A stretch of 64,000 bases of DNA, taken from contig CP066225.1 in the NCBI GenBank assembly GCA_016350165.1, forward strand, positions 4,836,001-4,900,000, in the 5' to 3' direction. Shown in pieces: positions 7,505 through 27,535 of the stretch. Positions within the stretch are counted from its first letter, which is position 1. Each line of letters opens with the position of its first letter. A program made the translations under genes and the position numbers. The notes under the pieces are model-generated. The model had not been told where the DNA came from, searched no databases, and was given only the letters and a program-made list of their open reading frames with translations. Source of the stretch: Planctomycetota bacterium. Its GTDB lineage: Bacteria > Planctomycetota > Phycisphaerae > Phycisphaerales > Phycisphaeraceae.

Positions 7505-8281
7505 ATGGTAGTTCGTTCGGAACGGGACTGGATGATTTTTTTGATTGATGGTTATCTTGATGAAGATATCAAGCATGATGATTTTGTGATGAAGATGCAG
7601 GATCTGTTGCGTGATACGAATGATCGATCGATTCAGATGTGTGCTGCGTATTGGAAGGGTGAGATTGAGGAGTGGGATGATTGGGAAGATGTTGGTGATG
7701 ATCGGGATGGGTGGGATTTGGTGCAAAGGGTGTTATTGTTTTTACATTCGAATGAGGAGCTGAAATGCAAAGAATTATCGCGGTGGTCATTGCGTCAGGT
7801 TGTTGGTGGGGTGTTAGCTGTGATTTGGTGTGCTGCGATCTATAGGATGATGGGAACGATTGGATTTGACTGGGGGATTTATAGTTTGATTCAGCTATGT
7901 ATGAATGTTTTGCTGTTAGGATTGTTTTGGTGGTTTCTTGTTGATGAGCGGAAGATGTGGGAGGGGGTGAGTAAGAGTACGAAGAGGAGTCAGCCGTTTG
8001 GGAGTTATGGTGAGTTGCGACGTGTTTATGAAACGGTGGGTGATTTTAAGAAACAAAAATTTAAGGGACGCGTACATATTCAAACTGGTGGATGGTTGAA
8101 ACGGCTATGGGATAAATTCTTTCTAGGGAGTCTGCTGTTTTATGCTGTGTTTTATGTGGTATTGATTGGGGCATTGTATTTTTATTTGCTTTGTTTTGGG
8201 TTGATGGTTGCAGTGGGGACGTTGCCGATTAAGGGGCAGTGTTATTCGTGTAACGATGTTGTTGAGACGGTTGGGTCATAA
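7505..8281 (+). CDS. Tandem small membrane protein of unknown function, paralogue 2 of 3
   Basis: 258 residues in the same family as the flanking genes: acidic N-terminal part, two hydrophobic segments near residues 100-145, a QPFGSYGELRRVYETVGDFKK loop, and a C-terminal hydrophobic segment. An upstream in-frame ATG exists at 7487. I chose 7505 because GGGAG lies 8 nt before it and because MVVRSERD then lines up with the MVNRSDR and MVNRLDR openings of the other copies. It follows copy 1 by 21 bp, so co-transcription is likely. DDWEDVGDDRDGWDLVQRVLLF in the N-terminal part has a counterpart in copy 3 (WEGACDDVYGWNVAQRVLLF), making copies 2 and 3 closer to each other than to copy 1. Confidence 0.8.
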   Translation: MVVRSERDWMIFLIDGYLDEDIKHDDFVMKMQDLLRDTNDRSIQMCAAYWKGEIEEWDDWEDVGDDRDGWDLVQRVLLFLHSNEELKCKELSRWSLRQVVGGVLAVIWCAAIYRMMGTIGFDWGIYSLIQLCMNVLLLGLFWWFLVDERKMWEGVSKSTKRSQPFGSYGELRRVYETVGDFKKQKFKGRVHIQTGGWLKRLWDKFFLGSLLFYAVFYVVLIGALYFYLLCFGLMVAVGTLPIKGQCYSCNDVVETVGS

Positions 8282-9308: not shown

Positions 9309-11180
9309 TTAGTGTGGTGAGGCTGCTTCTGAATCTTCGGAGGCGGCTTGGTTGAGGACGGCCATGAATTCGGTTGGTGAGTTGACTTCGAGGATGCGTT
9401 GTCGGATTGCGGTGCGTGCGAATGATTTTGCGAAGAGGGATAAGAGTTCGATCTGGGTTTCGGGTTGATCGGTTGGTGTGAGGAGGAGGCCGATGATTTG
9501 GGCTGGTTTGCCGTCTGGTGAATCGAAGTCAACACCTATGCGGTGGCGTGTGATGATGACACAAGGTTTTGCGAGGCCATCAAGGCGGGCGTGTGGAACA
9601 GCGAGGCCACCGGGGAGGCCGGTGTGCATGATACGTTCACGTTGAAGAACAGATTTGTAAATTTCGTGAGCTTTTAGACCTGTGATTTCGGCGGCTCGTT
9701 TGGAAAGTTCGCCGATGGTTTGCATGACGTCGGTTGCGTGTGGGTCGGTGATGACCTGTTTGTCTGTGAGGAAGTCGATGAGTTTGCGTTGATGTTGCAG
9801 GCGTAGGACGGCTTGCATGATTGGGCCTGAGATGAGTGAGGTTGTGAGAGCCATGACGACGATTGCGACCATGAGTTCATCGTTGATGAGGCCAGCTTCA
9901 CGAGCAAGTTGGCCGAGGATGATACCGACGGCGCCCTGCGCTGCCATGCCGAATGAGAGAGCGGAGGCTTCGCGTTTGCCTAGTTTTGCAGTACGAGCCC
10001 CGAAGTATGAGCCGGAAACTTTACCGACGGTTGCGAGGACGAGTACGAGTAAAACGATGACGATATCGAATGAATCGATGAAGTTGATGCGGAGGCCGAT
10101 GGAGGCGAAGAATATCGGCGAGAAGATGTTCATGATGAATTGGTTGATGGTGTCTCGTGTTCTTTCACGAAGGTGAGTTGAGTCACCAATGGCGACACCT
10201 GCGACGAATGCGCCGAAGATGGAGTGTATGCCGAGGTATTCAGTGAATGCTGCACAGATGAGTGAGATGCAGATGACGAATGAGAGGACGCCGCCTGGCC
10301 ATGACCAACGTGCTTGAACGTATGGGAGCATTTTGTGGCAGGCGAGTCTTCCGAGGGTGAGCATGAGTGCTAAGAAGACGAGTGTGATGAGGATTGTGGT
10401 GACGACGTTGGAGCCACCCATGTCTGCGGCCATGTCCCCTGATTGATTTACGACTTGATGCGCGATTTCTTTGACAGCTTCAGTAGATTGAACGACGGTT
10501 GTGTCGGAGAGCATCGCTGCAGCAGGGAGGAGTGCGAGGACGATGGCGAATCCGATCCAGCCGACGAGGTCGTTGAGCATCGCAGAGGAGATGATGAGCA
10601 TGCCCATGTCGGACTTGGCGATGTTGAGGTCGAGTAGAATTTTGGCGATGACGGGCAGGGCGGTAATTGACATGGCGATGCCGAGGAAGATGGCGAAAGG
10701 AAGTTGTCCGTCTTCGCCCATGCCACGAGGGCCTGCACCGAGGAAGTCTGGAAAGTACCATGCGATGGTGAAGCCGAATGCAAATGGGAGGACGATGCCA
10801 GCCATGGAAACGGTGATGGCTTCTTTGCCTTGCCTGATGACGGTTGAGAGATCGACTTCGAGGCCTACGACGAAGAGAAGGAGCGTTGCGGAGATGGTGA
10901 TGAAGCCATCGAGGGCTATTTTTTCGCCGCCTTCGAGTGGGAAGAGGAGATCGAAGAGGTTGTGCGAGAGAAATCCATTGTTAATAAGGAAGATAGAGAT
11001 GGCGCCGAAGATGGTTGGGCCAAGGATAATACCAGCGAGAATTTCGCCTAGGACTGACGGTTGCCTGTAACGACGAGCACGTTCGCCGAGGATTCTGGCG
11101 AGGCCGAGCAGAACGGCGATACCCAAGAGGAGGGCTGTGATGTCACTGGCAGAGAGAGAGGAAGCACCAAGCTGAAGCAT
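9309..11180 (-). CDS. CPA2-type cation/proton antiporter with C-terminal PTS EIIA-like domain
   Basis: 623-residue inner-membrane protein. About residues 1-440 form a Kef/NapA-like antiporter with some 12 helices; the opening LGLARILGERARRYRQPSVLGEILAG and GPTIFG are characteristic of CPA2. VVGLEVDLSTV and IFGAFVAGVAIGDS follow. About residues 460-610 resemble a phosphotransferase IIA domain of the fructose/nitrogen type: IMHTGLPGGLAVPHARLDGL places the usual phosphoacceptor His in AVPHAR. EIIA fusions to CPA2 exchangers are known, and the domain may gate transport or only act as a sensor. No other PTS gene is nearby. The gene is monocistronic and converges on the tandem membrane-protein genes across a shared terminator. 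Confidence 0.88.
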   Translation of the reverse strand: MLQLGASSLSASDITALLLGIAVLLGLARILGERARRYRQPSVLGEILAGIILGPTIFGAISIFLINNGFLSHNLFDLLFPLEGGEKIALDGFITISATLLLFVVGLEVDLSTVIRQGKEAITVSMAGIVLPFAFGFTIAWYFPDFLGAGPRGMGEDGQLPFAIFLGIAMSITALPVIAKILLDLNIAKSDMGMLIISSAMLNDLVGWIGFAIVLALLPAAAMLSDTTVVQSTEAVKEIAHQVVNQSGDMAADMGGSNVVTTILITLVFLALMLTLGRLACHKMLPYVQARWSWPGGVLSFVICISLICAAFTEYLGIHSIFGAFVAGVAIGDSTHLRERTRDTINQFIMNIFSPIFFASIGLRINFIDSFDIVIVLLVLVLATVGKVSGSYFGARTAKLGKREASALSFGMAAQGAVGIILGQLAREAGLINDELMVAIVVMALTTSLISGPIMQAVLRLQHQRKLIDFLTDKQVITDPHATDVMQTIGELSKRAAEITGLKAHEIYKSVLQRERIMHTGLPGGLAVPHARLDGLAKPCVIITRHRIGVDFDSPDGKPAQIIGLLLTPTDQPETQIELLSLFAKSFARTAIRQRILEVNSPTEFMAVLNQAASEDSEAASPH

Positions 11181-16948: not shown

Positions 16949-17737
16949 TTAATGAAAGTCGGCTGACGAAAGTTGGTCGACTTTTTTATTGTTTGGGTCG
17001 GCTTGATGTGGGTGAAGAATGTGTTGATCAAGGATCATGATCTTTTGCCAAATTTTACGAGACAGTCCTGTTGAAAGGTGCTCGATCTCGTTGACTGAAG
17101 CGAGGATGATACTGTCTTGTGTATTTTGTGCGTATAAGGCGGCAATTTTGCTTGTCATTGACAAGAGTTCTGAGCAGTAGTCAAGATAGCGGCCAAGCTT
17201 GTAAGGAGTGAGATTGTTGAAGTCGGTCGTGTCATTGTTTTGTAGTTGATTGTGAACGAAATGCTCGGGGTCTTTGGTGAGCTGATGCATGTCGATGATG
17301 TGAGCGATGACTCGGAGTTGGTGGAGTGCTTTGAGAGCTTTTCGACGCTTGAGTCTTGCTTCGAGTGTGATGAAGAAAATGGTCGCGATGCCGATGTAAA
17401 TGACCGAGGAGATTGCAGCGTCGGCACCTTCGAGGATCTCCCATGCAGAGGCATCGGTGAAATGAAGGTGAGCCACGAGGTATGTGATAATGGATATCAT
17501 TGCGAGGATGAGTGAAACAGTGATTGCGCGCAAGGGGATATTGGGTTTGTTAATGGTGGATGCACTTTTAGCGGTATTGATTGCGATGAGTTGCAATTGA
17601 GAAGCGATGTGGCTGAGGTTGCGATTGGGGAGGGTACTGGCGATTCGAGCTTCGATTTTCTCGATCGTGCTGACGATGCAATCAGGGCGGATTTGGGAGA
17701 GATCTGTATGGCAATTAGTCGGATCTAGCTTTGTCAT
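16949..17737 (-). CDS. Two-helix membrane protein of unknown function
   Basis: 262 residues. There is an N-terminal soluble part of about 65 residues, two hydrophobic helices (RAITVSLILAMISIITYLVAH, with a second at ISSVIYIGIATIFFITLEA) separated by an acidic loop, then a basic stretch RLKRRKALKALHQLR and a helical C-terminal domain of about 130 residues. This suggests a small inner-membrane protein with both ends in the cytoplasm. I do not recognise the family. It converges on the chemoreceptor gene, and the receptor's terminator hairpin overlaps this gene's last codons. Divergent from tkt across a 253-bp spacer. Confidence 0.75.
   Translation of the reverse strand: MTKLDPTNCHTDLSQIRPDCIVSTIEKIEARIASTLPNRNLSHIASQLQLIAINTAKSASTINKPNIPLRAITVSLILAMISIITYLVAHLHFTDASAWEILEGADAAISSVIYIGIATIFFITLEARLKRRKALKALHQLRVIAHIIDMHQLTKDPEHFVHNQLQNNDTTDFNNLTPYKLGRYLDYCSELLSMTSKIAALYAQNTQDSIILASVNEIEHLSTGLSRKIWQKIMILDQHILHPHQADPNNKKVDQLSSADFH
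16955..16987 (+). terminator. Terminator of the chemoreceptor gene, overlapping the opposite CDS
   Basis: AAAGTCG / CGACTTT stem with possible inner pairs GCT/AGT, followed by TTTTTTA. It lies inside the last dozen codons of the leftward gene that stops at 16949. Confidence 0.7.
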
Positions 17738-20042: not shown

Positions 20043-20651
20043 ATGGTTGATTGGACGCAGATGTGGAATGATCGGTACTCGGTTAATGAGTATGTGTATG
20101 GTCGTGATCCGAATGGTTTTTTAGCTGAAGTCACACCACGTTTACCCAAAGGTGGCCGAGCATTATGTCTAGCAGAGGGAGAAGGGCGCAATGCGGTATG
20201 GCTTGCAAAGCAAGGGTACGATGTTGTTGCTGTTGATATGTCAGAAGTAGGCTTAGACAAGGCTCGTCAGCTCGCAGAGCAAGAGAATGTCAGCATTGAA
20301 ACGGTCTGCTCAAATCTCGATGATTTTGTTATCGAAGAAAATCAATGGGATGTCATCGTTGTAATTTTTGTACCCGTTCAGCCCGAGTTGCGTAGAAGTA
20401 TCTACTCAAGTGTAAGTCGAGGCTTAAAGAAGGGTGGTAAATTTGTTGTTGAGATGTATACACCTCGCCAGTTGGAAATGGGGACTGGAGGTGGCTCTGA
20501 TATCAACGTGATGGTTGATGAATCCGTTATCAGAAAAGAACTGACAGGTTTGAAATTTGAAATACTCGAAGAAAAAGATCGTGTAATTCTTGAAGGTGTA
20601 TACCACACTGGAAAGAGTGCTGTCGTACAGCTATTAGCGGTCAAAGAATAG
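20043..20651 (+). CDS. Class I SAM-dependent methyltransferase (TehB/Ubie-like)
   Basis: 202-residue cytosolic methyltransferase. The opening WTQMWNDRYSVNEYVYGRDPNGFL is of the type found in small thiol/tellurite-like methyltransferases. Motif I is ALCLAEGEGRNAVWLAKQGYDVVAVDMS, with the GEGRN glycine loop and the acidic VD residue that binds the ribose of SAM. WDVIVVIFVPV is the motif IV strand. The ATG at 20043 is chosen because AAGGAGATCGTG precedes it, whereas the in-frame start at 19992 lies in the tkt terminator. Substrate unknown. Convergent with the sigma-fusion array that ends 18 bp away. Confidence 0.86.
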   Translation: MVDWTQMWNDRYSVNEYVYGRDPNGFLAEVTPRLPKGGRALCLAEGEGRNAVWLAKQGYDVVAVDMSEVGLDKARQLAEQENVSIETVCSNLDDFVIEENQWDVIVVIFVPVQPELRRSIYSSVSRGLKKGGKFVVEMYTPRQLEMGTGGGSDINVMVDESVIRKELTGLKFEILEEKDRVILEGVYHTGKSAVVQLLAVKE

Positions 20652-20668
20652 AAGTGAAATGATTCGAT

Positions 20669-22129
20669 TTATTGTTCGCATTTAATATCGATACGACGCT
20701 TCAATCGAGGTTCAGCAAGATATTTCAGCATGTTGTACTTAAAGTCGCCGCGATACTTCTTATGCTTTCCAATACTATGGAAATCATAAGAGGTATTAAC
20801 AATAACTCGACCTTTGCCAACTTTCCCAGTTAGTAAAACTGGTTTAGTCATCGGTGCAGGGCAAACGGCATAACGACGAGTTGCGTTTGGTAAAACTGAA
20901 GCAACACTTTCAATTAAAACCTTAGCCTTAGGAGTTGGCGTAAATACTGGGGCGCAGCCCGAGAGCTCAATTTCGGTACCCATGGATAGACCCGGCAATA
21001 TATTATGTGATTGTTTAACTATATTTTTAGTATGAAGATGGCATATATTCGGATGTGTATGGTAAACACCGTATAACGTTTTCATAAGACTTAATCTGCG
21101 AATTTTGGGATCATTCATGCCAGGAAACGCACAACCGAAATAACCTTCATTCAGTAGTCCTACTCCTGATTCAACGGCTTCCGTGATTGCGTTTACAACT
21201 GATGGTGAAGCAGAAAAACTTAATCCAAGTGTGATTACATCAAGTGTTTTGAGTGCTTCGGTATCAGTAGCATTCATATAGCCTGCATTAAATGAATAGT
21301 TTCGCAATGTAGATTCGATTGGGCCGTAATCAATCGTTCCGGGCTCGATTAATCCAACGATACGTACGTTAGGATGTTCAAAATGTCTCAGATTGCCTAT
21401 TTGAAATGACATTGGAAGCGTGAAACCAAAACGACCTGGTACTAGATAGGATTGACGGGATATAAATGTACCTATACGAATGAGTGGTGAATTCTCGGTA
21501 TCTGCCAGATCCTGTTCAAAGTTAAATGTTTTATGCGGCCTGAAATTTTGCGGTGCGTAATTAGTTAAAGAAGTTACAAACAGATGCGCATTACATAAGT
21601 CATCATATGTATCAAGATTCATATCTTTAAAAGCATTACGAAGTGCATGATGGGCAGAAGCAAGGCGGCGAGATGCCGTTGATTGAGATATATGCGTATT
21701 CTGAGCAATTTCAAACAATGGGACCTTATTCATGTGATACTGAATAATATATTGACGATGTTCGTTACTAATTCGAAGTAAAGCTTGGTCGAGACGGTAA
21801 TATAAAGCATCCCATGGTATTTCATGCTCTTTTACTGTTGCGCTATTTTCACGCCGTATGCGTTGGGAACGTTGATGCTTATTAATTGATATTGATGTAT
21901 TTCGTGCTGTGCGAGCAAGCCATGCACTATGATTTGTGCGAATCGTGCTTAAATTATAGACGTACTTAATCACTGTTTCTTGTACAGCATCATCTACATC
22001 AGATTGATTTGCAATGTATTTCCTGCAAATATGGGTAATAAATGGAGTGATATCATTTAGAATATCTGAAAGGCAATCAGAATCGCAGGGGTATTGGATG
22101 TTCTCTAATATATCTTCAATCTGTTTCAA
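20669..22129 (-). CDS. ECF sigma-like factor fused to ThuA/GATase1-like domain, copy 1
   Basis: 486 residues, two parts. Residues about 10-90 match sigma-70 region 2 (ICRKYIANQSDVDDAVQETV, then AWLARTARNTSISINKHQRS). Residues about 110-180 match region 4 with a helix-turn-helix (EIAQNTHISQSTASRRL, HHALRNAF). After a variable linker, about residues 216-480 form an alpha/beta domain: RIGTFISRQSY, VGLIEPGTIDYGPIESTLR, LDVITLG, VESGVGLLNEG, YHTHP, HNILPGL and GKGRVIVNTS. The H.I..GL and G.GRV elements recall ThuA-like glutamine-amidotransferase folds, but the nucleophile Cys is not conserved among copies (GYFGCAFPG here, GNAGLHYPG in copy 2), so enzymatic activity is doubtful. Start is TTG. No anti-sigma gene adjoins. 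Presumably a transcription factor sensing a ligand through the C-terminal domain. Confidence 0.8.
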   Translation of the reverse strand: MKQIEDILENIQYPCDSDCLSDILNDITPFITHICRKYIANQSDVDDAVQETVIKYVYNLSTIRTNHSAWLARTARNTSISINKHQRSQRIRRENSATVKEHEIPWDALYYRLDQALLRISNEHRQYIIQYHMNKVPLFEIAQNTHISQSTASRRLASAHHALRNAFKDMNLDTYDDLCNAHLFVTSLTNYAPQNFRPHKTFNFEQDLADTENSPLIRIGTFISRQSYLVPGRFGFTLPMSFQIGNLRHFEHPNVRIVGLIEPGTIDYGPIESTLRNYSFNAGYMNATDTEALKTLDVITLGLSFSASPSVVNAITEAVESGVGLLNEGYFGCAFPGMNDPKIRRLSLMKTLYGVYHTHPNICHLHTKNIVKQSHNILPGLSMGTEIELSGCAPVFTPTPKAKVLIESVASVLPNATRRYAVCPAPMTKPVLLTGKVGKGRVIVNTSYDFHSIGKHKKYRGDFKYNMLKYLAEPRLKRRIDIKCEQ

Positions 22130-22213
22130 ATTACTAGATCCTGATGAAATTAAAAAATGTTGGTATGCGTGCGGTGATGAATGCGTTGTCTATGTAGTAT
22201 TCTGTGCTGAGGT

Positions 22214-23665
22214 TTAATATTTCATTTGCATGCGTTGCTCTATTCGTGGTTCTGCAAGGTAATTTAACATATTGAAGATAAAGTCACCGCGATATTGTTT
22301 ATGGCTACCAATGCTGGAAAAAAAGAAAGCAGTATTTACGATGATTCGTCCTTTGCCATGATTTCCAACGACTAAAACTGGCTTTCTTACAGGTGTTGGA
22401 TGAGGTGCAGCATTCTTTTTGTTTGAAGGTAAAACCGGCTTGGCATCTTCAATCAATACTGTGGCGTTTGGTTTCGGGATGAAGATTGGACCACAACCAG
22501 GGACATCTAGGTTAGTTCCAGCAGACAAACCTGGAATAATATCGTGTGATTCTTTAACCACACAGTCTATAAGATGGTGGCATTTATGCGTGTGCGTGTG
22601 ATAGTACCCACAATACTTTTGTGCGAGTAAAAAATCACATAATTGCGGATCATGCATCCCAGGATAATGAAGGCCAGCATTTCCTTCGTTCAATAACCCT
22701 ACCCCAGATTTAACAGCTTCATCGACAGCGTTAATTACAGATGGCGTTGTTGCACAGTTATGGCCTAAGGTAATGACATCTAATGTTTTTAGAGCATCTA
22801 CATCAGTGGCATTCATATAACCAGCATTGAATGAATATTCTCTTAATGTAGATTCAATTGGGCCGTAATCAATCGAACCCGGCTCAATCAGACCAACAAT
22901 ACGAACATTCGGGTGCTCAAAATTTCTCAAATTTACAATCTGAAAACGCATGAGAGAGTGATTGCCAAAACGGTTGGTCGTAAAGAATGATTTATGTGAT
23001 AAAAAAACACCGATACGAATTGGAGGCGCATTTAGATCATCTGAATACTGTGGATCATTTTCAAATGTATTTGGTGTTACTGTGTGCTGAGGTGTGTAAT
23101 TTGTAATAGCAGATACAAATAAAAAATCATTGCAAATATCATCATATGTTTCAAGGTTAATATCCTTGAAATAGTTTCGAAGGGCTTGATGTGCTGAAGC
23201 AAGTCTTCGAGATGCTGTTGATTTAGATATTTGCCTTTGTCTCGCAATTTCAATTAAAGGTAGATTATTAATGTGGTGCTGAATAATGTAATCACGACAT
23301 TCTTCATTAATACTTAATAATGCTTGATCTAATCGATAGTAAAGAGCATCCCAAGGAATTGTATGCTCTTCTATGGTTGCACTGTTTTGTCTTCGAAGTC
23401 TTTGAGATTGTTGATGGCGATTGATTGAGATTGCAGTGTTACGAGCAGTGCGTGCCAACCAAGCAGAATGATTTGAGTGAATGTTTTGATAGTGGTTAAC
23501 GTACTTGACTAGCGTTTCTTGTGCAGCATCCTCAGCGTCGGATTTATTTTCAATGTATTTTCTACATATCGCTGTGACGTAAGGCGTGATTTCATGCAGT
23601 ATGTCTGAGAGCATATCACTGCACATCATTTGATTGTTACACAATTTAGCTTCAAGTGAATCCAA
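22214..23665 (-). CDS. ECF sigma-like factor fused to ThuA/GATase1-like domain, copy 2
   Basis: 483 residues, same architecture as copy 1 and closest to it: region 2 (ICRKYIENKSDAEDAAQETL, WLARTARNTAISINRHQQSQ), region 4 (IEIARQRQISKSTASRRL, HQALRNYF), then the C-terminal domain with GLIEPGSIDYGPIESTLREY, LDVITLGHN, GVGLLNEGNAG, YYHTHTHKCH, HDIIPGL and GKGRIIVNTA. The putative start is TTG with GGGA about 9 nt upstream; internal Met codons at residues 13-14 would remove the first helix. It is 84 bp downstream of the start region of copy 1's promoter side, in the same orientation. A poly-Lys/Asn linker (SNKKNAA) precedes the final strand. Confidence 0.8.
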   Translation of the reverse strand: MDSLEAKLCNNQMMCSDMLSDILHEITPYVTAICRKYIENKSDAEDAAQETLVKYVNHYQNIHSNHSAWLARTARNTAISINRHQQSQRLRRQNSATIEEHTIPWDALYYRLDQALLSINEECRDYIIQHHINNLPLIEIARQRQISKSTASRRLASAHQALRNYFKDINLETYDDICNDFLFVSAITNYTPQHTVTPNTFENDPQYSDDLNAPPIRIGVFLSHKSFFTTNRFGNHSLMRFQIVNLRNFEHPNVRIVGLIEPGSIDYGPIESTLREYSFNAGYMNATDVDALKTLDVITLGHNCATTPSVINAVDEAVKSGVGLLNEGNAGLHYPGMHDPQLCDFLLAQKYCGYYHTHTHKCHHLIDCVVKESHDIIPGLSAGTNLDVPGCGPIFIPKPNATVLIEDAKPVLPSNKKNAAPHPTPVRKPVLVVGNHGKGRIIVNTAFFFSSIGSHKQYRGDFIFNMLNYLAEPRIEQRMQMKY

Positions 23666-23802
23666 ATCAATTTCCCGGAAATTATAGAAATTACTATTCG
23701 TCAGAAATAAGCAATCTAATATTCTATACGTTTAAAATACTCAAAGGTTTTATGGATTATTTAAAATGGTACTCGTTATCTCGTAGGAATTTGCATATCA
23801 AA

Positions 23803-25260
23803 TTATTGGCAAAGTAATTGTTTTTGTAAGATTCTAGGCTCAGCCAAATAATTTATCATTTTTAGAATGAAATCACCGCGGTATTTTTGATGGTCGCCAA
23901 TACTTCTAAAATCAAAGGAAGTATTTACAATCACACGTCCTCTCCCAACTTGGCCCGTTAAAAGAATTGGTTTTCTTATTGGTGATGGACATGCAGTGTG
24001 CTGTTTATTTACTGTGGGGTATACAGGTTGTATATTTTCGATGAGCACTTTAGCTTCAGGTTTGGGGATGAATATGGGGCCGCAGCCCGGTATATCTAAC
24101 TCAGTTCCTGGTGCTAAACTATCAATAATATTATGCGAATGTCTGACAATACTTTTTACAGGGATATGGCAAATATATGGGTGTGTATGATAGTATCCAA
24201 TATATGCATTAGAAAGCATCAAATTTTGGAGCCGCTGGTCCCAAAGACCAGGAAGACTGCCACCAATGTTCCCTTCATTAAGTAGCCCAACACCTGACTC
24301 AACTGCTTCAGTAATCGCTCTTATTACAGGTGGTGTAATGATAAAGTTGTAGCCAAGCGTTATAACGTCTAAAGATTTTAAAGATTCAGGATTTGCTGCA
24401 TTCATATAGCCCGCGTTAAATGAATGATCACGAAGCGTCGATTCGATGGGACCATAATCGATGGTACCTGGCTCAATAAGGCCAACAATCCGCACATTTG
24501 GATGCTCGAAATTTTTCATATTATAGATCTGAAACGGCATCGGTAGCTGTGCGCCCAGACGTGTACGTGCAAGGTAGGATTGATGGGAAAGAAAAATACC
24601 GATACGTATTGGTTTTATGTCATCCTTTGTGGCCGTTACAGAATCGACATTGAATGTTTGATGTTGTTTCGAATGTTGAGGGACGTAATTGGTGATGGCT
24701 GTCACAAACAAGTGATCATTACATAAGTCTTCGAATGTTTCCAAGTCCATATCTTTGAAAGCATTGCGAAGCGATTGATGTGCAGCCGCTAAGCGACGTG
24801 ACGCAGTAGATTTGGAAATTTGTTTCTCACGAGCAATCTCAAACAAAGGTGTATTATTGATGTGGTGCTGAACGATGTATTCTCGATATTCATCGTGTAT
24901 TTGCAGTAACGCTTTGTCTAACCGAAAGTACAAGGCATCCCAAGGTATGTCATGTTCTACCGTAGTTGCTCGGTTCTCTCGGCGTAACCGTTGAGATTGT
25001 TGATGGCGGTTGATTGATATTGCCGTATTGCGAGCGGTGCGTGCAAGCCATGCAAGATGATTACTGTGAATGTCTGTGAGATTGTTTACAAACTTAATGA
25101 GAGTTTCTTGGACAGCATCATCAGTATCCGATTTGTCTTCGACGTACTTTCTGCAAATACTGCTGATGTAAGGCGTGACTTGCTGGACGATATCTGCAAA
25201 GATATTCTCGTCTCTTGTTTGCACAAATAATTCAACAAGTTTTTGAAATTGCTCTTGCAT
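23803..25260 (-). CDS. ECF sigma-like factor fused to ThuA/GATase1-like domain, copy 3
   Basis: 485 residues from ATG 25260. The frame is open to TTG 25305, inside copy 4, but 25260 lines up with the starts of the paralogues and leaves a 5-bp gap to the copy-4 stop, so copies 4 and 3 are probably translationally coupled. Region 2: ICRKYVEDKSDTDDAVQETL, AWLARTARNTAISINRHQQS. Region 4: FEIAREKQISKSTASRRL. C-terminal domain: IRIGIFLSHQSY, GLIEPGTIDYGPIESTLRDH, LDVITLGYNF, GVGLLNEGNIGG, YYHTHPYICH, HNIIDSLAPG, GRGRVIVNTSFDF. The amidotransferase nucleophile elbow is absent here too. Confidence 0.8.
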   Translation of the reverse strand: MQEQFQKLVELFVQTRDENIFADIVQQVTPYISSICRKYVEDKSDTDDAVQETLIKFVNNLTDIHSNHLAWLARTARNTAISINRHQQSQRLRRENRATTVEHDIPWDALYFRLDKALLQIHDEYREYIVQHHINNTPLFEIAREKQISKSTASRRLAAAHQSLRNAFKDMDLETFEDLCNDHLFVTAITNYVPQHSKQHQTFNVDSVTATKDDIKPIRIGIFLSHQSYLARTRLGAQLPMPFQIYNMKNFEHPNVRIVGLIEPGTIDYGPIESTLRDHSFNAGYMNAANPESLKSLDVITLGYNFIITPPVIRAITEAVESGVGLLNEGNIGGSLPGLWDQRLQNLMLSNAYIGYYHTHPYICHIPVKSIVRHSHNIIDSLAPGTELDIPGCGPIFIPKPEAKVLIENIQPVYPTVNKQHTACPSPIRKPILLTGQVGRGRVIVNTSFDFRSIGDHQKYRGDFILKMINYLAEPRILQKQLLCQ

Positions 25261-25265
25261 AATAA

Positions 25266-26705
25266 TTACATTGATGCGAGTAAAGTTTTTTTTCTCTTGA
25301 TACAAGGCTCAGCAAGCCAATTAATAATGTTAGCCAGGAAATTGCCTTGCATATGTGGATGATCATTGATTGGTTTTATATTTGTTAGATTACATAACAC
25401 TGATCGGCCCTCACCTATATTTCCAGAAACAAGAACAGGCATTTTCATTGGATTGGGTGAATCCACACAAGGCCGTGTTGGCTTCACGAGTTTGTCTTTA
25501 GAAATCAGAAGTTCAGCGCCAGATCTTGGCTTAAATATTGTGCCACAACTTTCAACGATCAGTTCATCGCCCGGCTTTAATCCTGCAATAATTGGATGCG
25601 GTTTATGGATGGTCGTTGTGTACGTTGGTTGTAAACAAGGTCTCGTGTGATAAGAACCGACGCAATGATCTGCCATCATTAGACGCTGTACACTTGGCGA
25701 TTTAAAGCCAGGAATTTTGCCTCCGATTCGAGTTTCAGAAAAAAGACCAACGCCAGAACAGATAGCTTCATAAACCGAATTTAAAACAAGCGATGAAGTT
25801 GCAAAGTTTGTGCCCAGAAATATGACATCTAGTTCTTTAAGATCATTAATATTAGTGATGTCCATATACCCGCCGGTATAGTGGCGTTCACGTAGTGTCG
25901 ATTCAATCTGAGGCTGATCGATTGTGCCTGGTTCAATTAAACCAATCAAACGCAAGTTAGGGCATTGCTTCAAAAAAGTTGCGTTAAATAATTGATGCCA
26001 TGTCGAAACTTTCTTGTTGAAGTTATGCGTGGTGACAGTTGCTTGCGTTGTAAGGTGTGACACATAAACACCAACGTTGATTGTTGGCTTGTTAGGTTGG
26101 TATTCCGCTGTTCTGAATGTAGTTGCAGGTGTGTAGTTTAGTACCGCTTCTGCAAAGAGTGTATCTGTACAAATCTCATCAAGTGTGTTCAGCTGTAGAT
26201 CACGAAACACATTCCGGAGATTTTTACAGGCAGTGTTAAGCCTGCGTGATATTGTTGAAGTAGAGCAAGATCTTTTAGCTGCAATATCAGAGAGAATTTG
26301 GTTGTTCAAGTAATACGCAAGAATGAGTGTTCGATCTTCATCACACAACTGTTCCAGTGCCGTATCCAAGCGTGTGTAAAGCGAATCCCAAGCAATTGAA
26401 TGCTCAGGCATCGTAGCATGCCGTTCAATGCGTTGTCGATGGCTTTGCGCTTTACGATTGTAGTTGATAGCAGTATTGCGAGCAGTGACCGAAACCCAAG
26501 CCTGAAGATTTGTATCAACGGTCATAGCATGTCTAGCTAAGCGTATTAAAGTGTCTTGGACCACATCTTCGACATAATTCTGGTTCGTGCAATACCTGCG
26601 AGCCACTGAGGTCACAAGCGGGTATAGCTGATCGACTATTTCAGCGAAGCATTGTTCATCACCAGTTGACTGGTAGTGCGTAAATGTAGATTCAAGTAAA
26701 GGCAA
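25266..26705 (-). CDS. ECF sigma-like factor fused to ThuA/GATase1-like domain, copy 4 (most divergent)
   Basis: 479 residues, the first gene of the array in transcription order. Start TTG 26705 with GGGAG 5 nt upstream; a stop lies six codons further upstream in frame, so no ATG alternative exists there. Region 2: VARRYCTNQNYVEDVVQDTLI, AWVSVTARNTAINYNRKAQS. Region 4: LSDIAAKRSCSTSTISRRL. C-terminal domain: INVGVYVSHLT, GLIEPGTIDQPQIESTLRER, LDVIFLGTNF, GVGLFSETRIGGKIPG, YHTRP, HPIIAGLKPGDEL, GEGRSVLCNL. It keeps the IEPGTID..IESTLR signature while diverging elsewhere, so that signature is under the strongest constraint and may be the ligand or contact site. Confidence 0.8.
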   Translation of the reverse strand: MPLLESTFTHYQSTGDEQCFAEIVDQLYPLVTSVARRYCTNQNYVEDVVQDTLIRLARHAMTVDTNLQAWVSVTARNTAINYNRKAQSHRQRIERHATMPEHSIAWDSLYTRLDTALEQLCDEDRTLILAYYLNNQILSDIAAKRSCSTSTISRRLNTACKNLRNVFRDLQLNTLDEICTDTLFAEAVLNYTPATTFRTAEYQPNKPTINVGVYVSHLTTQATVTTHNFNKKVSTWHQLFNATFLKQCPNLRLIGLIEPGTIDQPQIESTLRERHYTGGYMDITNINDLKELDVIFLGTNFATSSLVLNSVYEAICSGVGLFSETRIGGKIPGFKSPSVQRLMMADHCVGSYHTRPCLQPTYTTTIHKPHPIIAGLKPGDELIVESCGTIFKPRSGAELLISKDKLVKPTRPCVDSPNPMKMPVLVSGNIGEGRSVLCNLTNIKPINDHPHMQGNFLANIINWLAEPCIKRKKTLLASM

Positions 26706-26974
26706 TGCAACTCCCGAAAGTTATGCTCCCATCATTGCAGTGGAAAATCTGCAACGCAACTCTAGCAATGTTTTAATCATGCGGGACACATTTATATACG
26801 TCAAGTCAGTTTTTCTGTTCTGGGATTCAACTTGGGGTATTTGTCAGGGTTGCAGCAATTCTGACCGCTCAAAGCCCTTTATGAACCACTTTTACACGTC
26901 CAATTTCCATTCTTCAGGATTGGGGATAGATCAGGGCACTTTTAAGCAAGCACGCTGTTGAGTAAGATTGCAGT

Positions 26975-27535
26975 ATGAAAGAGCTCGCAGATGCACAAGC
27001 GGTCGGCAAATTAGTCGAAGAACTTGCTACTCAGGTCAAATCATCCGTAAATTTAGACCAGAGCAGTGATGTGCCGTGGGCATTGGTCGGGGTTCGAAAT
27101 CGTGGTGATAAGCTCGCAGAACGTCTCTCAGATGCCATTGGCCCCGAAATATTCGCTAATAGAGTCGGCGTTCTCGATATTACACTCTATCGTGACGACC
27201 TTTCCGAGGTTGCTGCTCAGCCCATCGTGCAGACCACTGAGATCCCTTTCAATGTTGATGGCATGAATGTGGTGCTTATTGACGATGTCCTCATGACGGG
27301 TCGTTCTGTCCGTGCAGCTCTTCAGTCACTCATGGACTTCGGCCGCCCTAAGCGTGTTTGGCTCGCTGTCCTCGTCGATCGAGGTGGCAGAGAACTTCCC
27401 ATACGAGCCGATTTCGTTGCTCTGGATCTTTCCAAGGGAGCCGATGGTCTCATTGATGGGGACCACGTGCAAGTGCTCATCAGCGAGGTCGATGGCAAGG
27501 ACGCAATTGAAGTTAGGCCAAAAACCGCTTCATAG
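26975..27535 (+). CDS. pyrR: Bifunctional pyr operon regulator / uracil phosphoribosyltransferase
   Basis: 186 residues. PRPP-binding loop VVLIDDVLMTGRSVRAAL is the type I phosphoribosyltransferase signature. VGVRNRGDKLAERL and GVLDITLYRDDLSE are PyrR hallmarks, the latter being the LDITLYRDD segment, as is LVDRGGRELPIRADFVA. PyrR controls pyrimidine genes by binding mRNA in response to UMP and has weak UPRT activity. It lies 107 bp upstream of pyrB in the same orientation. The spacer has a GTTC-AGAAGG-GAAC hairpin but no T run, so I cannot show an attenuator. The upstream 270 bp to the sigma array should hold the promoter. Confidence 0.93.
   Translation: MKELADAQAVGKLVEELATQVKSSVNLDQSSDVPWALVGVRNRGDKLAERLSDAIGPEIFANRVGVLDITLYRDDLSEVAAQPIVQTTEIPFNVDGMNVVLIDDVLMTGRSVRAALQSLMDFGRPKRVWLAVLVDRGGRELPIRADFVALDLSKGADGLIDGDHVQVLISEVDGKDAIEVRPKTAS

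Follow-up and report, generated by a model that had tools for sequence, protein, structure and literature searches.

How an extracytoplasmic function (ECF) sigma factor may be governed when no gene for an anti-sigma factor adjoins its own is the question raised by a locus of a marine planctomycete assigned to Poriferisphaera heterotrophicis ZRK32. The locus lies in a stretch of 64,000 nucleotides of contig CP066225.1 (positions 4,836,001 to 4,900,000; hereafter the window) and comprises four adjacent leftward genes, each joining an ECF sigma factor to a C-terminal domain (CTD) of ~265 residues which is common to all four copies (coordinates in Table 1). A first-pass annotation, made from the sequence letters and open reading frames, had described such a row; the frames, the sigma factor scores and the common CTD confirm it, and the flanking genes (transketolase and methyltransferase, phosphoribosyltransferase and carbamoyltransferase) bear out its statement that no anti-sigma gene adjoins the row. 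As the CTD appears cytosolic and no anti-sigma gene is near, a one-component sigma switch is the simplest model, as for ECF41, and on balance we incline to the view that each protein is a cytosolic switch of this kind, in which the ECF sigma factor is regulated by its own ThuA-like CTD with no separate anti-sigma factor.

The sigma part is recognised in every copy. The ECF model TIGR02937 scores 55.5, 56.8, 56.1 and 74.9 bits in copies 1–4, above its cut-off of 42.9 in all four cases, Pfam sigma region 2 likewise exceeds its cut-off in all four, and the N-terminal part of the copy 3 model matches SigW, SigE, and AlgU in structure comparison. Copy 3 is not a member of the planctomycetal sigma subfamily TIGR02984 (24.7 bits vs. 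a cut-off of 183.75), and Pfam matches no zinc finger in the four copies. The host genome contains 28 matches to TIGR02937, 21 of them above the cut-off and other sigma-70 types included; a profile search found no copies of the fusion in this genome beyond the four. Copies 1–3 are mutually ~60% identical and copy 4 stands at ~38%. The length of 480–486 residues first given for the set holds for copies 1–3 (486, 483, and 485), copy 4 having 479.

At cut-off, neither Pfam nor NCBIfam has a model that matches the CTD. The ThuA model PF06283 finds none of the four proteins at E up to 1, and among 16 CTDs one reaches E 0.12. In profile–profile comparison, hhalign aligns the CTD family with ThuA at 98% (E 2e-13) and with GATase1_like at 94.6% (E 6.5e-8), the four window CTDs alone with ThuA at 95.3% (E 2.2e-8), and a single negative control, transketolase, at 0.2%. 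A profile of 15 CTDs run against 400 genomes gave six weak matches, and the five of them that were scanned are three ThuA and two GATase1_like proteins; by sequence profile the Protein Data Bank yields 3rht, a planctomycetal GATase1-like protein (E 1.2e-4). AlphaFold2 models full-length copy 3 with a mean predicted local distance difference test score (pLDDT) of 77.9, a predicted template modelling score (pTM) of 0.62 and a loose linker, and the CTD of copy 4 alone with a pLDDT of 83.2 and a pTM of 0.86; both models resemble the ThuA-like 4pxy, 4jqs, and 1t0b and the GATase1-like 3rht (Z 14.0–15.9; Foldseek, VIA). GH42 galactosidase domains score equally high (Z 16.4), so that fold alone cannot single out ThuA. 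On these profiles and predicted structures the CTD is a remote ThuA/GATase1-like domain by ancestry and fold, lying below the Pfam threshold; the flavodoxin/GATase-like fold put forward in the first-pass annotation is thus predicted as GATase1-like. Its signature motifs IEPG(T/S)ID..IESTLR, LDVI.LG, and G.GR occur in all four copies, as does SGVGL; the longer ESGVGL is exact in copies 1 and 3 only, copies 2 and 4 reading KSGVGL and CSGVGL.

The distribution of the domain was drawn from samples of genomes that overlap. The order sample (400 genomes) contains 19 genomes with matches to the CTD profile (E 1e-5), of which 13 have ECF fusions and six have stand-alone ThuA/GATase1-like proteins; the class sample (397 genomes) contains 13 at E 1e-10, six of them beyond the order; and the phylum sample (392 genomes) contains eight at E 1e-5, of which five are weak and outside the class (L088–L092). 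A wider profile at E 1e-8 matches 19 of 367 class genomes and four of 343 phylum genomes, and a contig scan with a ten-row alignment returned three loci. One weak match of the wider profile in the phylum, also outside the class (L153), is, by eye, the GATase-like part of a large enzyme. In all, this survey of Planctomycetota places soluble ECF–CTD fusions at 20 loci in 14 genomes, all of one class; two of the loci (L045 and L115) change frame and a third (L114) is cut by the contig end. The named carriers are metagenome-assembled genomes of Phycisphaeraceae and one of Planctomycetota. No relative was found in plasmids with one CTD as query, and none of 35 pattern stretches from IMG/VR was confirmed as a relative. 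Another genus has an independent row of two fusions on a branch of its own (G101; L116, 3339–8335).

In the sister species of the host, assigned to P. corsica KS4, a row of three copies occupies the equivalent place, with 2 bp from stop to next ATG and with flanking genes closely similar to those of the host (transketolase 88% identical, methyltransferase 77%, phosphoribosyltransferase 81%, carbamoyltransferase 90%). Since the fusion recurs in other genomes and at the equivalent place in the sister species, the row is not a product of chance. Within the KS4 locus (L039), near-identical DNA covers the 3′ end of each of two copies together with the start of the following gene (~8100–8200 and ~9580–9660), which may be left from a recent duplication or conversion.

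The same CTD family also occurs in proteins of other architectures. In the sigma factors L047, L119, L121, L122, and L125 it follows a transmembrane (TM) stretch, in a Ser/Thr kinase (L118, 4075–6198, minus strand; Pkinase E 2.3e-52) it forms the extracytoplasmic domain behind the TM segment, and in L120 and L123 it lies behind a TM stretch with no recognised output. A further member, L124, starts at a contig end. The four copies of the window have no TM helix between sigma part and CTD, the 19-residue hydropathy maxima of this interval being −1.01 to −0.23. The same 19-residue mean before the CTD is at most 0.97 in the 20 soluble loci, at least 2.06 in seven CTD relatives, and at least 1.73 in all 13 sigma cousins with other extensions. 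These cousins, from the family and the order, all have a TM stretch and varied extensions, some with Pfam matches (export/SLBB, DUF3738, ankyrin, acetyltransferase) and others with none. The sigma tree parts the soluble ECFs (18 rows) from the TM-type sigma factors (17 rows) by one branch (100/100). As the CTDs of L119/L125 and L047 sit on TM-type sigma factors, the domain would have joined ECFs, or switched compartment, more than once. Since the domain has been exchanged among sigma factors and a kinase, and is found both in the cytosol and outside it, it is most readily taken for an input module, which supports the early view of it as a sensor rather than an enzyme; it is probably a previously undescribed sensor domain.

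The TM-type ECF clade (L047–L058, in genomes G009, G026, G021, G000, G001, and G042) is itself very varied, with mostly unrecognised C-terminal extensions, frames of up to 1776 residues and several members in G026. One of its members in the host genome (L056, 4187–5398, at ~3249 kb) has ~400 residues with an unrecognised C-terminal part and is conserved in P. corsica (L057).

What the module may sense can be approached through its conserved and lost residues (copy 3 numbering; alignment of 20 soluble CTDs). Invariant in all 20 are E273, R277, G284, L294, L297, D298, I300, G323, G325, H376, C393, P431, G436, G439, G441, and R442. The positions of ThuA His84 and His190, both unchanged throughout an alignment of 18 ThuA proteins, are occupied by F/D, A/F, I/D, and I/N in copies 1–4, as read by eye from one hhalign alignment whose register is uncertain by a residue or two. 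No conserved cysteine stands at the amidotransferase elbow (GVGLLNEG block) of the 20 CTDs, in agreement with the first remark that this nucleophile is not conserved. The CTD could still be an active ThuA-like or hydrolase-like enzyme, that is, a trigger enzyme fused to a sigma factor; its remote relation to ThuA would fit, as would a small number of strongly conserved polar residues, but with both histidine positions replaced in all four copies and no cysteine at the elbow we regard this as very improbable.

A second possibility concerns C393, which in a profile alignment falls within one or two residues of the invariant glutamate of ThuA. A cysteine occupies this column in 20 of 20 soluble CTDs and in none of eight relatives outside the soluble class, as might be expected of a thiol, redox, or metal sensor, and cysteine-based ECF sensors have precedents in CorE (sections of PMC8999054 on ECF extensions) and OrbS (described in part of PMC9023288). 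These proteins, however, use clusters of cysteines and not a single invariant one, and the soluble CTDs are set apart from the others by a single branch (91/91) in the CTD tree, so that presence or absence of Cys393 counts as a single event, perhaps a matter of descent and not of function. We think such a sensor distinctly unlikely, though less so than an enzyme.

Alternatively, the CTD may be a protein-contact domain docking a partner that holds or frees the sigma factor, the kind of role proposed for the ECF42 TPR extension in the parts of PMC8999054 that treat extensions. The loss of the ThuA histidines and of the amidotransferase nucleophile, which may have left a dead pocket, would agree with this, and no conserved metabolic gene stands beside the distant carriers (lists of neighbour genes for 11 of them, made without Pfam scans, reveal no partner that recurs). 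On the other hand, the invariant E273, R277, D298, H376, and C393 include polar residues at strand ends, which would be typical of a pocket, and the family also occurs outside the membrane, where a common cytosolic partner is impossible; a docking domain is accordingly judged unlikely, if the least so of these three alternatives.

We therefore return to the one-component switch, in which the CTD would bind a small intracellular metabolite, perhaps a sugar-derived one given that the relatives of the CTD are ThuA and sugar-enzyme domains, and the ligand-bound CTD would free or block the sigma part. Comparable arrangements are described in the sections on extensions of a 2022 review (PMC8999054), which puts the number of ECF groups bearing extensions at 26 or more and names SnoaL, TPR, WD40, cysteine-rich, and TM types. 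In ECF41 (SigJ, Ecf41Bli) a soluble C-terminal domain likewise replaces the anti-sigma factor, with a ligand or conformation model (PMC8999054 and part of PMC3426412), but its fold is SnoaL-like, whereas the ThuA/GATase1-like domain described here is twice as long, with no COE partner gene seen; in the four copies a SnoaL-like domain has no match at E up to 1 and the model is GATase1-like instead. ECF238/CorE and OrbS are also sigma factors with their own cytosolic sensor (same section; part of PMC9023288), formed by short cysteine clusters in a C-terminal tail and not by a globular alpha/beta domain with one invariant cysteine. ECF42 (TPR) and ECF57 (WD40 in some members, with a planctomycetal example) share the large C-terminal extension and the lack of an anti-sigma factor (PMC8999054, on extensions), but their repeat domains serve protein contacts and none of TPR or WD40 type is found by Pfam in the four copies. 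ECF52, ECF53, and ECF48 (sigma–zinc finger–TM–extracytoplasmic sensor) resemble the TM cousins L047–L058, L119, and L125, and differ from the window copies, which lack a TM stretch and a zinc-finger match. Lastly, ThuA (PF06283) and GATase1_like (PF07090; 3rht, 1t0b, 4jqs) share remote homology and fold with the CTD, which differs in lying below the Pfam threshold, in having lost the ThuA histidines and in being fused to a sigma factor or kinase.

The first-pass annotation also took the four genes for a set of parallel switches. This holds insofar as the sensors appear parallel; copies 1–3, however, look aimed at nearly the same promoters rather than at separate regulons (moderate evidence). 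Among these copies regions 2.3–2.4 are 81–92% identical, the region 4 recognition segment 68–84%, and the recognition helix nearly identical (STASRRLA(S/A)AH), as opposed to 51–54% for the second half of the CTD and 44–48% for the linker. Protein trees built from all seven Poriferisphaera copies (four from the host, three from KS4) arrange the sigma parts of copies 1–3 according to genome and the CTDs according to lineage, and the two data sets reject each other's topology (approximately unbiased [AU] test, 0.0005 and 0.0026). Placing copy 2 beside its KS4 counterpart is rejected by sigma (0.0008) and supported by the CTD (97/95). For copy 3 with KS4 copy k1 the CTD test gives no rejection (p 0.148), and the pairing of KS4 copies in the sigma tree has weak support (58/63). 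Sequence comparison thus provides moderate evidence that the sigma halves of copies 1–3 are kept alike and that their sensors differ. Four separate switches for four separate regulons would account for the DNA-reading segments of copy 4, which are 48–59% identical to those of copies 1–3; with segments 68–92% identical and a recognition helix almost shared among the other three, this alternative seems to us unlikely. In the model preferred here copies 1–3 would read nearly identical promoters through sensors with different pockets, the row would combine several signals on a single gene set or on overlapping sets, and copy 4 would be an older, more distinct branch.

Several points weigh against the switch or against shared promoters. 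Region 4 (PF04545) is weak by Pfam in copies 1–3 (19.4, 16.2, and 12.8 bits), and only copy 4 (24.1) reaches the cut-off of 24.1. The linker (residues 196–214) is undefined in the full-length model of copy 3, which consequently gives no contact between sigma part and CTD, and the neighbour genes are unconserved among distant carriers, so that context names no target. By whole domain the contrast among copies 1–3 is small (sigma2 64–70% identical, sigma4 66–72%, CTD 61–62%, with 69–74% in its first half). The groups in the pairing tests for copies 2 and 3 were named after the trees were seen. Nucleotide trees show no conflict (AU 0.25 and 0.14), and for this reason gene conversion of the sigma half, which fits the protein trees, is only suggestive.

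A broader scenario, offered tentatively and with somewhat less than an even chance in our estimation, is that a sensory family descended from ThuA has been shuffled in Phycisphaerae among cytosolic ECFs, membrane-anchored ECFs, and Ser/Thr kinases. The Poriferisphaera row, with sigma halves alike per genome and separate sensor lineages, would then direct several ligands to one regulon, and the cytosolic form would have gained an invariant pocket cysteine.

The row sits between a methyltransferase gene, followed by transketolase, and a divergent phosphoribosyltransferase (PyrR-like) gene, with an aspartate/ornithine carbamoyltransferase gene on the same side. Copies 3 and 4 are 5 bp apart, as first described (TAA of copy 4 at 25268–25266, ATG of copy 3 at 25260); the gaps from copy 3 to copy 2 and from copy 2 to copy 1 are 137 and 84 bp. 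The start of copy 3 is taken as this ATG, the frame-finder's TTG frame starting at 25305. Promoter-like sites are not enriched in 20550–27050 (15 observed vs. 21.2 expected from shuffles), and the region upstream of copy 4 is mostly unconserved in the sister species except for the part adjoining the phosphoribosyltransferase gene; for both reasons no autoregulation motif is claimed. Elsewhere in the window (16949–17737, minus strand) a 262-residue protein with no Pfam match at E 1e-5 and two hydrophobic stretches by eye is encoded beside a chemotaxis-receptor gene.

Table 1. Features of the sigma factor row, in window coordinates.
Feature	Position	Strand	Description	Basis
Copy 1 gene	20669..22129	-	486 aa, TTG start; ECF sigma factor with C-terminal ThuA-like domain	Open frame, sigma scores, motifs
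Copy 1 sigma part	21563..22126	-	Regions 2 and 4, next helix	Profile of four copies
Copy 1 ThuA-like domain	20687..21505	-		Profile of 15 CTDs
Copy 2 gene	22214..23665	-	483 aa, TTG start; architecture as copy 1	Open frame, sigma scores, motifs
Copy 2 sigma part	23102..23659	-		Profile
Copy 2 ThuA-like domain	22220..23044	-		Profile
Copy 3 gene	23803..25260	-	485 aa, ATG start; architecture as copy 1	Open frame, motifs, AlphaFold2 model
Copy 3 sigma part	24691..25254	-		Profile
Copy 3 ThuA-like domain	23812..24633	-	With Cys393	Profile, CTD alignment
Copy 4 gene	25266..26705	-	479 aa, TTG start; divergent, first in row	Open frame, sigma scores, motifs
Copy 4 sigma part	26139..26699	-		Profile
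Copy 4 ThuA-like domain	25281..26105	-	Folded alone, pTM 0.86	Profile, AlphaFold2, structure comparison
Intergenic stretch, copy 4 to divergent phosphoribosyltransferase gene	26706..26974	.	Expected place of row promoter; none shown	

ECF sigma factors with regulatory extensions are already known, and judged from sequence the ThuA-like extension would constitute a new class of soluble sensor. The sections and tables on ECF extensions in PMC8999054 name no ThuA or amidotransferase extension; the words sigma and ECF do not occur in PMC11266412, and literature searches found no ECF–ThuA-like fusion, though the primary 2021 ECF classification could still describe it. Built-in ECF regulators are known, yet few of their sensor domains are, and the locus offers a paralogue series in two species reported as cultured, plus a kinase-borne domain for comparison. 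If copies 1–3 do share promoters and their ligands differ, the row would provide a ready case of signal addition at the level of the sigma factor and could supply orthogonal parts for controlling expression.

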